Positions 1-19,673 of a DNA stretch of 22,562 nt are shown here, piece after piece; within the stretch, counting starts at the first letter, position 1, and each line of letters begins with the position of its first letter. The stretch lies in the IMG/VR virus record IMGVR_UViG_3300028392_000309, positions 1 to 22,562 of that record. One strand, 5' to 3'. The stretch comes from a virus. A model generated the notes under the pieces. It was not told the DNA's origin. It worked only from the letters and a program-made list of their open reading frames with translations, and did no database searches. The translations under genes and the position numbers were made by a program.

Positions 1-60
1 CTGGCAGACCATCGTACAGGTCAATGTCTGCCACTAATTCGGGGAAAAGCGGATGCTGTG
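1..60 (+). repeat. Palindromic intergenic element, copy A
   Basis: GGCAGAC (3-9) and GTCTGCC (26-32) form a perfect 7-bp inverted repeat around a 16-nt centre. They are followed by an AATT (36-39) and the purine tract CGGGGAAAAG (40-49). The same arms, the same GACCATC at the start of the centre, the AATT flank and the purine tract recur on the minus strand at 4391-4457. Here the purine tract follows the palindrome, whereas in copy B it precedes it, as if each copy were cut from a tandem array with a unit of about 60 nt. This copy touches the window edge, so more units may lie to the left. It sits about 75-130 nt upstream of the winged-helix gene and in the sense of its transcription. Function is unknown: operator, RNA hairpin or processing site are all possible. 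Confidence 0.6.
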
Positions 61-4390: not shown

Positions 4391-4457
4391 TCTCAATTTG
4401 GGGCAGACGTTAACCCAATAGGATGGTCTGCCAGCACCCCCTTTTCCCCGGAGCTGG
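4391..4457 (-). repeat. Palindromic intergenic element, copy B
   Basis: On the minus strand this reads CGGGGAAAAGGGGGTGCTG, then GGCAGAC (4408-4402 counted on plus as 4402-4408, paired with 4426-4432), then CAAATTG. The 7-bp arms GGCAGAC and GTCTGCC enclose 17 nt. It matches copy A at 1-60 in both arms, in the GACCATC start of the centre, in the AATT flank and in the GGGGAAAAG tract. It fills most of the only sizeable gap in the lysis region (4384-4463) and ends about 18 nt before the start of the 163-aa gene. A second, imperfect stem is possible between GCCCAGCTCC and GGTGCTGGC. The latter shares GGC with the palindrome arm, so the two structures exclude each other. Confidence 0.6.
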
Positions 4458-4463
4458 GCTGGG

Positions 4464-4697
4464 TTATTTGTCTTGCTTGGCTTCCAACTTATCAAAGATC
4501 TTGCCAAGCATTTCTTTAATTTCACGCATATCCTCGCGATAATCATCGCGGGCAACATACGTTTTGGGAAGTTCTTCCCGTAGTTTAGACAAATCGGATT
4601 TCAACTCTTTGACAGCAGACCACATTTCACGCGCAAACCAACCTGCTACTGTAAAAGCTAATCCAATTGCTGAGTTAATTAGCGCCTGATATTCCAT
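4464..4697 (-). CDS. Small membrane/coiled-coil protein (XhlA- or holin-like)
   Basis: This 77-aa protein has one N-terminal hydrophobic span (about residues 6-24, INSAIGLAFTVAGWFAREM). A charged coiled-coil-like helix follows, reading VKELKSDLSKLREELPKTYV.. and ending IKEMLGKIFDKLEAKQDK. This architecture is common among phage holin-associated proteins of the XhlA type and small inner-membrane spanin-like proteins. ATG follows directly on the stop of the upstream gene (TAAATG), with GGAG at the right spacing. With the neighbouring 163-aa protein, lipoprotein, holin and endolysin it probably belongs to the lysis set. The exact role is uncertain. Confidence 0.7.
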   Translation of the reverse strand: MEYQALINSAIGLAFTVAGWFAREMWSAVKELKSDLSKLREELPKTYVARDDYREDMREIKEMLGKIFDKLEAKQDK

Positions 4698-10504: not shown

Positions 10505-12421
10505 TTACCCCAATAAACCGTAGTTGACCATTTTGTAACCGCTTGGGTGCATCAAAACGGCTTCTGGCATGACTTTTTCAACTTCATCAGCCATTACACC
10601 TTGTTGATGCTCGCCCAGAATGTCGTATTCATAAAGACCGATTCCAAGTTTGTGTGTGCCAATGCGTTTAATATTGGATTTCAGTCTGCGATCAGACAAC
10701 ATAGGAAGCGCCGCACCCGCCAGACTAAACAAACCATTTGTTGCAGCATTAGCACCGGACTGCTGGATGCCGTAGTTTTGCATATTAGCCGCGCCTTGAG
10801 CTTGCGCACCCGCAAATATAGGCGCAGGCGCAATATTCGTTGGGTTGTAGCCTTGGAATTGAGGCATCTGCAATTGTGAGCCACTCATCAAACCCGTGAT
10901 TTCATTCAAAGGTTGATTGCGCAATGTCAATTGTTTTTGCAACTCTTGCAATGCCGCTTGATTGGCAAATTGCCCCGCACCCAGGTTTTGGTTGTATTGC
11001 TGAAGTTGAGCAGCATTATTTAATTGCTGTTGTTGCGATGCAATATTCTGATTTTGCAAGAGAGCTTGGTTTTGAGCCGCTTGGGTGTTCATCCCTTGCT
11101 GATAGTTCTGACCAATGGCAGCATTTGCAAGTTGTTGGCTTGTTACATTCTGCCCAAAGTTTTGCCCAATTGCTTGGTTTTGAGCCGCTTGCGTAGCCAA
11201 AGCATTGTTGAAATTCTGTTGTGTTGCTTGATTGCCAAGTTGTTGATTGGCTACGTTTTGACCAAAGTTTTGCGCAGCGGCTTGATTTTGAGCCGCCTGT
11301 GTTCCCATGCCTTGTTGGTAATTTTGAGCAATGGCTTGATTTTGCGCTTGTTGATTTTGCAAATTTGCACCAAAACTTGCCAATTGCGCTTGATTACCAA
11401 ATTGACCTGATTGCAATTGCTGATTAAACCCTTGGCCTTGGGCTGCGTTTTGTGCTTGTTGAGCAGCCAAAGCATTACCAAAGTTTTGTTGTGTGCCAGT
11501 GTTGCCATATTGACCCGCAGCCAAGGCTTGATTAAAACCTTGTTGATTTGCCGCAGTATCTAAACTAATTCCTTGCAATGCTGCTTGCGTCAACAAATCA
11601 TTTTGCTGCTGACTTTGATCTCGCATGGCGTTGGTATATGCTTCACCGCCCGCCACTAAACCTTGGTTTGCCAAGTTTTGAGCAGTTGCTTTTTGTTGGC
11701 GCTCCAATTGAGGCGCAAGGCGAGACATAATTGCCGCTTGGCCTGTAGTGCCTGCATTAACAGGCATTTGAGCAACATTACTCAAATTTAATTGGTTATT
11801 GGCAAGGTAATTATTGGCGTTTAAATTTTGATCTATTTTGCCAATATTACCAATGGAATTTTGAAGGTCAACGCCTTGAACACCGCCAGTTGCTTGCTGG
11901 CCTTGAAAATTAGCACTTGCTTGGGGATTAGCAACAGAACCATACGCTTGACCACTTTGCACATTTCCTTGAGCCGTACCGCCTACAACATTGCCATAGG
12001 CTCTATCGCCTGTAAATCCACCAGAAGCCCTGCCCATGCCCAACAAATCAGGCGACCCTTGTATTTGTCCAGAATTTGCAAGTGAAGTAGTTGTTTGCGG
12101 CCCTGTATATTGAAATGGCGTCCCAATAATACCGGATGCTTTTTGCAAACCAGTTTCACCAAGGCCAGCTAATTTTTGTTGGACTCGTTGTTGTGACTCC
12201 AACGTATTTTGCGCTGTTGGCGTTAGATATTGCACTATAGAAGGCTGATTTGTAGTAGGATCAAAATATACGTTTTGACCTCCTAATGGGCCTTGTATAT
12301 TAGGATTGTTTAGGTAACCCTGAGTAATCGCAGTTTCTTTGTTCGCCGCGCCTTGGGCAGTAGCAGCAGCCGCATAATCAGGCGTTGCGGGCGCACTTGG
12401 TTGAGGGCAAAAGAAAGCCAT
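10505..12421 (-). CDS. Q/N-repeat virion protein with S74 chaperone domain
   Basis: This 638-aa protein has three parts. Residues 1-290 are Gly/Gln/Asn-rich, with an 'LANQGLVAGGEAYTNAM..Q' helix near 250. Residues 294-491 consist of eleven 18-residue Q/N repeats. The end, from about residue 576, is a short S74-type domain with the canonical SDRRLKSNI start, then the YEYDILGEHQQGVMADEV element and VNYGLL at the terminus. The S74 fold normally trimerises and self-cleaves. This one lacks the long C-terminal helix seen in the tail fibre copy. Position directly after the nozzle and acetyltransferase genes equals the first ejection protein or tail needle of P22-like phages. A trimeric needle, a fibre or an internal protein would all fit. 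Shine-Dalgarno AAGGAA is good. Confidence 0.7.
   Translation of the reverse strand: MAFFCPQPSAPATPDYAAAATAQGAANKETAITQGYLNNPNIQGPLGGQNVYFDPTTNQPSIVQYLTPTAQNTLESQQRVQQKLAGLGETGLQKASGIIGTPFQYTGPQTTTSLANSGQIQGSPDLLGMGRASGGFTGDRAYGNVVGGTAQGNVQSGQAYGSVANPQASANFQGQQATGGVQGVDLQNSIGNIGKIDQNLNANNYLANNQLNLSNVAQMPVNAGTTGQAAIMSRLAPQLERQQKATAQNLANQGLVAGGEAYTNAMRDQSQQQNDLLTQAALQGISLDTAANQQGFNQALAAGQYGNTGTQQNFGNALAAQQAQNAAQGQGFNQQLQSGQFGNQAQLASFGANLQNQQAQNQAIAQNYQQGMGTQAAQNQAAAQNFGQNVANQQLGNQATQQNFNNALATQAAQNQAIGQNFGQNVTSQQLANAAIGQNYQQGMNTQAAQNQALLQNQNIASQQQQLNNAAQLQQYNQNLGAGQFANQAALQELQKQLTLRNQPLNEITGLMSGSQLQMPQFQGYNPTNIAPAPIFAGAQAQGAANMQNYGIQQSGANAATNGLFSLAGAALPMLSDRRLKSNIKRIGTHKLGIGLYEYDILGEHQQGVMADEVEKVMPEAVLMHPSGYKMVNYGLLG
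10949..11542 (-). repeat. Eleven 54-nt (18-residue) Q/N repeats
   Basis: Residues 294-491 of the 638-aa protein break cleanly into eleven consecutive units of exactly 18 residues. Examples are QNFGNALAAQQAQNAAQG, QNYQQGMGTQAAQNQAAA, QNFGQNVANQQLGNQATQ and QNFGQNVTSQQLANAAIG. The consensus is Q-N/G-F/Y at 1-3, a Leu/Val/Met at 7, Gln at about 10-11, and Asn-x-Ala near 14-16. Eighteen residues are five turns of an alpha-helix, so one continuous amphipathic rod is plausible. No unit has an insertion or deletion. Confidence 0.8.
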
Positions 12422-18558: not shown

Positions 18559-18900
18559 TTATCTCCTGTGGTATTTCATCTGATTGGCTTGTTCACGCAA
18601 TGAATTCATTATTTGATTGGCCTCGCTGTGGGTCATGTTCCCCAACTGTTGAGCCAACACCTCACGCCTTTTCTCATTAGATGGAGCCGTGAGTTTTGTT
18701 TCCATTGATTCATTGCCCACCTCAATACATCCGTTTTCTCTCAAATGTTCTCGGTGTCGGCTTCGGCTCTGGATCATAGAGCCGTCAATCATTGATTGAT
18801 AAGGAGCAATGTCGCCCATTATCATAGGAGCTTGTATATCATCATTGGCTTTGTGTTTTTCAACCAATTCGCCGTTACGTATAACGTAAGTTGTTCTCAT
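18559..18900 (-). CDS. 113-aa conserved head-module protein
   Basis: The N-terminus RTTYVIRNGELVEKHKA is followed by IMGDIAPYQSMIDGSMIQSRSRHREHLRENGCIEVGNE. This is a common phage pattern ('tYViRnGkLV.K....P.v..Di.pY.S..dG..I.sRs.HReHlr..gciEVGNE'). The C-terminus is a charged helix. It resembles a small zinc-ribbon-less adaptor of head genes; function unknown. Its ATG overlaps the stop of the 258-aa gene (ATGA), and 3 nt separate it from the scaffold start. Coupling to the scaffold suggests a head-assembly role. Confidence 0.68.
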   Translation of the reverse strand: MRTTYVIRNGELVEKHKANDDIQAPMIMGDIAPYQSMIDGSMIQSRSRHREHLRENGCIEVGNESMETKLTAPSNEKRREVLAQQLGNMTHSEANQIMNSLREQANQMKYHRR

Positions 18901-19673
18901 AGTAGCAAAATTTCCTCGTCATCTGATTCGATGTGGTCGTCCCAAATTAACTGCATTTTGTCCAAATTAGACAACATTTTCTGAATGTCTGTCAATGTGA
19001 CATTTTGCTTGGTTGCAATTGTAGCAAATGTTTCAACATAAGGCGCAATTATTTCTTCGGGTATCTTGCCTTCAACAATGCGCTCGTATGCCGCAATAAT
19101 TTCGTCTCTGCGCTTTTTATTCTTTTCTTGCTCACGTTTGAGTTGTTTTTTGAGCTTGTCAGGGCCAGGATCATGCGTATCATCAATGAAAATAATAGGC
19201 TTAAGAGGGCTTACATTGCCAACCGCACCTGTAGCCTGAACACCCGTTAGTTGAATAGTTTTGGAGATTGAGGCGAACGAGCCTGCAAATCCTGTTGCTA
19301 GTACACCATTGATGCCAATTGAACTGTTGGGGGTTAAAGATCCAGCCGATCCTGTAGCCGATACCCCACTTAGGCCAACAGTTACCGATTCACTTTCATT
19401 ACCCGCCAAACCAGAAGCCTGTACGCCAGTTAGCCCAATGCTTGTTCCATTGACGGGTGAACCAACAGCGCCTGTAGCGTTTACACCTGTTAATGCCTCA
19501 ACGCTTGCCTCTGTAACAGATCCTGCTGCGCCCGTAGCTTGGACGCCAGTTAATGCGGCGCTAACGGCAACACTAGGGCTGCCAACGCCGCCCGTAGCCT
19601 GATTGCCTGTTAATGGGAGACTATCCCATTGAGCATCATCCCAAGTACCTGTGCCCCAAGGCCCTTGTGCCAT
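18897..19673 (-). CDS. Repeat-rich probable virion protein (258 aa)
   Basis: The N-terminus has a short aromatic/Gly motif (GPWGTGTWDDAQWDSLPL). Residues 22-156 are seven repeats of about 20 residues with the core TGVxATGxxGS. The C-terminal ~95 residues are unlike these. They form a strongly charged helix (KLKKQLKREQEKNKKRRDEI) and then a helical domain ending in an acidic ESDDEEILLL. This resembles a stalk joined to a helical base. It lies between portal and scaffold and is coupled to both neighbours by TAATG and ATGA overlaps. A head fibre or decoration role is possible; I recognise no family. Confidence 0.62.
   Translation of the reverse strand: MAQGPWGTGTWDDAQWDSLPLTGNQATGGVGSPSVAVSAALTGVQATGAAGSVTEASVEALTGVNATGAVGSPVNGTSIGLTGVQASGLAGNESESVTVGLSGVSATGSAGSLTPNSSIGINGVLATGFAGSFASISKTIQLTGVQATGAVGNVSPLKPIIFIDDTHDPGPDKLKKQLKREQEKNKKRRDEIIAAYERIVEGKIPEEIIAPYVETFATIATKQNVTLTDIQKMLSNLDKMQLIWDDHIESDDEEILLL
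19206..19610 (-). repeat. Seven 20-residue TGVxATG repeats
   Basis: Consecutive units are TGNQATGGVGSPSVAVSAAL, TGVQATGAAGSVTEASVEAL, TGVNATGAVGSPVNGTSIGL, TGVQASGLAGNESESVTVGL, SGVSATGSAGSLTPNSSIGI, a 21-residue NGVLATGFAGS unit and a final TGVQATGAVGNV. Each ends in a hydrophobic 'L', giving a 60-nt DNA period. The glycines and hydrophobic positions are fixed while the second half of each unit varies. That is the pattern of a repetitive beta stalk. Confidence 0.75.

Follow-up and report, generated by a model that had tools for sequence, protein, structure and literature searches.

The window analysed here, a 22.6-kb fragment from an uncultured phage (22,562 nucleotides in full), carries the same short palindrome twice, and the question is what this palindrome does. 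The original prediction offered three answers: the operator of a regulator, a family of RNA hairpins or a small mobile repeat.

The two copies in the window

Exactly two matches to GGCAGAC-N10..24-GTCTGCC are found in the window, at 3-32 on the plus strand and at 4402-4432 in the minus sense. The pair of palindromes that had been claimed is thus real: shuffled sequence gives an expectation of 0.00, and none of 100 shuffles reaches two. Both copies are accompanied by the 10-mer CGGGGAAAAG (40-49, plus; 4441-4450, minus), the sharing of which is not significant alone, 1.44 occurrences being expected when one mismatch is allowed. A 19-nt block, 40-58 compared with 4432-4450, is 89% alike between the copies.

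The tract described as common to both copies is present in each, but its placement needs correction. It had been put on opposite sides of the two palindromes, as though both were offset cuts from a tandem unit of about 60 nt. In copy B, however, the tract is internal to the element, where it forms the 3' arm of a hairpin, P1, followed by AAAAG, while the 5' half of copy A itself precedes base 1. A tandem unit is accordingly unsupported, and the tract at 40-49 looks like the remnant of a second, partial copy rather than the other side of one such unit. The full copy A is seen in L123, a contig nearly identical to this one, where it follows the stop of a 74-aa ORF without a library match, at the end of an ERF-YqaJ-74aa operon. 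Copy B occupies 4402-4466, so that the span first given for it, 4391-4457, loses its 5' end. Its sequence, TAACCCAGCCCAGCTCCGGGGAAAAGGGGGTGCTGGCAGACCATCCTATTGGGTTAACGTCTGCC (minus sense), opens with the stop codon of a 77-aa ORF, the upstream gene (4464-4697, minus; phrog_462); the libraries recognise no SSB or capsid protein here. The parts of both copies are collected in Table 1.

Table 1. Parts of the element in the window, with the fold assigned to each and its basis
Feature	Position	Strand	Basis or remark
Copy B, complete long form TAACCC...GTCTGCC	4402..4466	-	one of the 22 copies aligned in A5
S3 5' strand TAACCCA; 4464-4466 is the stop codon of ORF 4464-4697(-)	4460..4466	-	ORF end; TAA/TAG/TGA covary with TTA/CTA/TCA
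Hairpin P1 (CCC..GGG), CTCC loop, then AAAAG	4441..4458	-	weaker: summed pairing 69, highest shuffle 66
S1 5' strand GGGGTG, partner 4420-4425	4435..4440	-	3/6 pairs changed on both sides; 100% paired, 22 copies
Loop L1, CT	4433..4434	-	CT or AT in nearly all compact copies
S2 5' strand GGCAGAC, partner 4402-4408	4426..4432	-	palindrome count and covariation
S1 3' strand CATCCT	4420..4425	-	covariation, A5
S3 3' strand TGGGTTA	4411..4417	-	5/7 pairs changed on both sides
S2 3' strand GTCTGCC	4402..4408	-	palindrome count and covariation
Copy A, 3' part only: L1 CT 1-2; S2 5' strand 3-9; S1 3' strand from 10; S3 3' strand 17-23; S2 3' strand 26-32	1..32	+	full copy in L123
Remnant of second, partial copy, CGGGGAAAAGCGGATGCTG	40..58	+	89% like 4432-4450(-); no S2 after it

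A second hairpin, GGCGCTGTC-CTCTAT-GACAGCC (93-116), stands after copy A and before the start codon at 134. It is perhaps another decayed pseudoknot, whose loop might pair with ATAG (62-65).

A predicted pseudoknot in long and compact forms

The arms of the palindrome, GGCAGAC and GTCTGCC, pair to form a stem, S2, and the bases flanking the 5' arm pair to form another, S1 (GGGGTG with CATCCT in copy B). The strands follow one another in the order S1 5', S2 5', S1 3', S2 3', each stem being separately supported; because S1 and S2 cross, the predicted fold is an H-type pseudoknot, with a loop L1 of two bases. In the phage family to which the window belongs there is a third helix, S3, which starts at the stop codon of the upstream gene and, in this long form, encloses S1 and P1. 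In an early reading of the long form only S3 crossed S2; it was replaced after the local S1 had been recognised. Minimum free energy folding of copy B without pseudoknots recovers the S2 hairpin, by a method that cannot represent the S1-S2 knot.

An alignment of 22 distinct long-form copies (A5) places S3 in columns 1-8 with 56-62 and S1 in columns 32-37 with 47-52, and S2 reads GGCAGAC/GTCTGCC in all but one copy, which has GGCATAC/GTATGCT. Pairing is kept in 99.3% of cells and 9 pairs are changed on both sides. The covariation score is 0.260, compared with 0.129 for shuffled (0/500) and at most 0.062 for slid alignments, controls which ignore the relatedness of the copies. S3 covaries with the stop codon itself, so that TAA, TAG and TGA are paired with TTA, CTA and TCA, respectively. 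Hairpin P1 is plausible, its support being weaker than this (Table 1).

The fold recurs in a wider family. At least 120 stretches of viral contigs match GCTGGCAGACC-N6..26-GTCTGCC, compared with 14 for a permuted S2; the matches to the generic pattern GGCAGAC-N13..20-GTCTGCC in viral contigs were mostly due to chance and were discarded. Most members of the wider family are compact, consisting of an S1 of 3-9 bp, CT, GGCAGAC, the S1 partner, an A-rich loop and GTCTGCC. Their S2, which is GC-rich at its base, has compensatory variants (GGCACCC/GGGTGCC, GGCAGAG/CTCTGCC and GGCATAC/GTATGCC). In an alignment of 40 compact copies from unrelated phages, partly chosen by the motif (A6), 95.2% of cells are paired and 62 are doubly changed, with a covariation score of 0.418 compared with 0.090 after shuffling (0/500), a control that again takes no account of relatedness.

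The compensatory changes that had been proposed as a check are thus found in both alignments, and the pseudoknot predicted from this covariation is very probably correct. Of the original answers, the RNA structure family stands, as a pseudoknot rather than a hairpin. The invariant G.U pair that S1 carries in A5 favours RNA over DNA. An operator bound by a regulator is unsupported, because S1 and S3 vary freely in sequence while their pairing is kept, because the G.U pair is invariant and because all examined copies lie in the sense of local transcription, as had been noted for the two in the window.

A search of Rfam returned nothing relevant to the element, and BLAST of its DNA against isolated phages gave essentially no matches. 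No description of it was found in the literature covered, mainly open-access papers. Two groups of matches from a genome scan were set aside. Those in Aquificales sit in the 3' coding end of an apparent TnpB gene, and those in Bradyrhizobium belong to a separate repeat family. The former read CGCTGGCAGACCG..GTCTGCC, within a coding end that reads KALADRLKSALPVDCGE (L324, L344, L346, L384 and L388 from Aquificales/Desulfurobacterium, and L330 and L341); this end of the apparent TnpB gene is where omega RNAs are encoded. The latter (L326-L328, L337, L345, L347, L361, L374, L377, L382 and L387) share CTCCGCTGGCAGACCGGTACGTCTGCCTTCTCCCC, a conserved block that may be a structured RNA or repeat in its own right.

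Gene ends that carry the element

The element had been described as lying upstream of a start codon. The median distance to the next start is indeed 29 nt, but the fixed reference is the upstream stop codon, at a median of 21 nt by mechanical gene calls, and the stop codon itself provides the first bases of S3 in the long form. Where the upstream genes can be named, they mostly encode SSB proteins of different families (PHROGs 1192, 224, 9002, 112, 7011 and 44) and major head proteins (3437, 267 and 283), proteins that a phage needs in large amounts. The downstream genes, by their PHROGs names, are mixed and unrelated.

As the compact copies were partly selected by motif, two surveys were anchored on proteins instead. 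Downstream of gp32-like SSB genes, a pseudoknot follows the stop codon in 44 of 64 distinct regions and in none of 192 shuffled ones. Reverse complements passed the score threshold, which was set by the analyst, in 3% of cases, and other gene ends (227) in 7%. S2 here includes GGCAGAC, GGCAGAG, GGCAGAT, GGCACCC, GGCGCCC, GCTCCCC and GCCCTCC; therefore it is the structure, and not one sequence, that is kept. Among podovirus capsid genes, collected by protein, a pseudoknot follows the stop codon in all 46 distinct sequences. A single copy is present per gap in both surveys.

In related phages this place can be taken by a terminator. In nine SSB relatives CCCCCACC..GGTGGGGG-TTTTT occupies it, and terminator-like hairpins are found just after the capsid or SSB stop codon in the cultured relatives Vibrio 1.182.O, E. 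coli EcoM_APEC, Alteromonas ZP6, Yersinia YeP4 and SPO1 (gp32.4). In other cultured phages whose capsid or SSB genes are related, neither a pseudoknot nor a terminator-like hairpin is present there.

Compact copies are often followed by a T-tract: 65 of 128 have a run of at least four T residues in the next 16 nt, compared with a background of 4.8%, and the tract mostly starts a few nucleotides past S2 rather than immediately behind it. Among window-type copies the proportion is 1/26. Promoters directly 3' of compact copies are no general rule (10%, compared with 12% in shuffled sequence).

A probable 3'-end role and its rivals

Position, choice of genes and replacement by terminators argue for a role at the 3' end of the upstream message. 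Sequence makes it on balance probable that this pseudoknot, with the palindrome as its S2 stem, acts in cis at the 3' boundary of phage genes, where it would end or shield the message upstream. Compact copies with a T-tract would probably act as a transcription terminator, or together with one. The window form, which has no T-tract, would more likely block 3'-to-5' exonucleases and separate the upstream message from the next gene; for copies of this type, behind small genes of no assigned role, such a barrier or insulator is the preferred reading. A terminating ribosome would have to melt S3, and on its departure the RNA may fold back onto the end of the reading frame to give a knotted 3' end. 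In flaviviral xrRNAs the hairpin loop of a three-way junction pairs with downstream bases, and the long form has such a junction; the likeness is at most one of working, a putative exonuclease resistance, and no sequence relation is claimed. Against a 3'-end role stand the T-tract displacement and its near absence from window-type copies, the half of compact copies without a four-T run, the position of the window copies after genes other than a recognised SSB or capsid gene, and the many relatives without the element.

A wider proposal is more tentative: the element may represent a phage RNA family, widespread and as yet undescribed, whose pseudoknot replaces the hairpin as the 3' end of the most abundant messages, with the stop codon built into its paired bases in some lineages, such that translation termination would control its folding. 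If true, a knotted RNA would take the place of the plain terminator hairpin in ending or protecting the SSB and capsid messages of many environmental phages, and the element would be a new and very compact (~30 nt) 3'-end part. With it one could study whether a pseudoknot can terminate bacterial RNA polymerase or halt the 3' exonucleases of bacteria, and the long form, with a stop codon within a helix, would allow a direct test of a link from translation termination to the structure of mRNA 3' ends.

The nearest rival is an intrinsic terminator and nothing more, in which the S2 hairpin and U-tract do the work and S1 pairing is incidental. The T-runs of compact copies, the GC-rich base of S2 and the true terminators in the same place after the same genes in related phages are all as this would have it, and the element, like such a terminator, lies just 3' of a gene. 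It nevertheless has two crossing stems in place of one hairpin, and its T-tract is usually displaced by a few nucleotides, or missing in the window form. S1 would moreover be unnecessary, yet compensatory changes preserve it across unrelated phages, which makes this explanation unlikely.

Other structured RNAs share some features with the element. STAXI (Rfam RF01728) is a pseudoknot near SSB genes, listed from Enterobacteriales, with two or three tandem repeats and UUCG loops (PMC2864571). The element resembles it in fold and neighbourhood; however, it is single in each gap, and the RF01728 covariance model matched none of 12 records at E<=10. ToxI, of type III toxin-antitoxin systems, forms a tandem array ahead of the toxin gene, whereas the element is mostly single and the genes that follow are unrelated. 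The ToxI antitoxin RNAs are likewise small RNA pseudoknots (PMC5772629).

The mobile repeat of the original prediction, here a small mobile or linker element spreading among gene junctions and giving homology for module exchange, has partial support. A search with the 163-aa protein encoded beside copy B found 55 contigs, in several of which the element directly precedes the gene for this protein. Others lack it, and there the upstream gene leads without interruption to the start codon of that gene. When contigs that share one upstream gene are compared, the element is present in 5 and absent in up to 22; the count was made through a short peptide motif, and in L138, L139 and L175 another gene seems to intervene. 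The element also follows unrelated upstream C-termini (...KIFDKLEAKQDK, ...PSEETE, ...VKKIIG and ...DEDISF) and precedes several different genes, and a partial second copy adjoins copy A. However, inspection by eye of junctions with and without the element showed neither terminal inverted repeats nor target-site duplications, and the place of compact copies after SSB and capsid genes is conserved in many relatives. S1 and S3 differ between copies while their pairing is kept, which structural selection explains and recent spread does not; mobility is an improbable explanation.

A translational operator in the 5' leader of the downstream gene, perhaps bound by the phage SSB, is similarly doubtful, since, for all that the next start is some 29 nt away and SSB genes are over-represented, the SSB gene is the upstream one, the downstream genes are unrelated, capsid genes carry the element too, and some copies precede a tRNA-like sequence and no protein gene (L501). 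The model for such an operator, the gene 32 leader pseudoknot of T4, is located 67 nt 5' of that gene (PMC3014915); the element is likewise a phage H-type pseudoknot tied to an SSB gene, but is found 3' of the SSB stop codon and not 5' of the gene that would be regulated.

Elsewhere in the window, imperfect 60-nt repeats at 19217-19612, within ORF 18897-19673(-), encode a repeated short motif, and a large, low-complexity ORF rich in Q, N and A (10505-12421, minus) has an end that resembles an intramolecular chaperone domain (DRRLKSNIKRIG).
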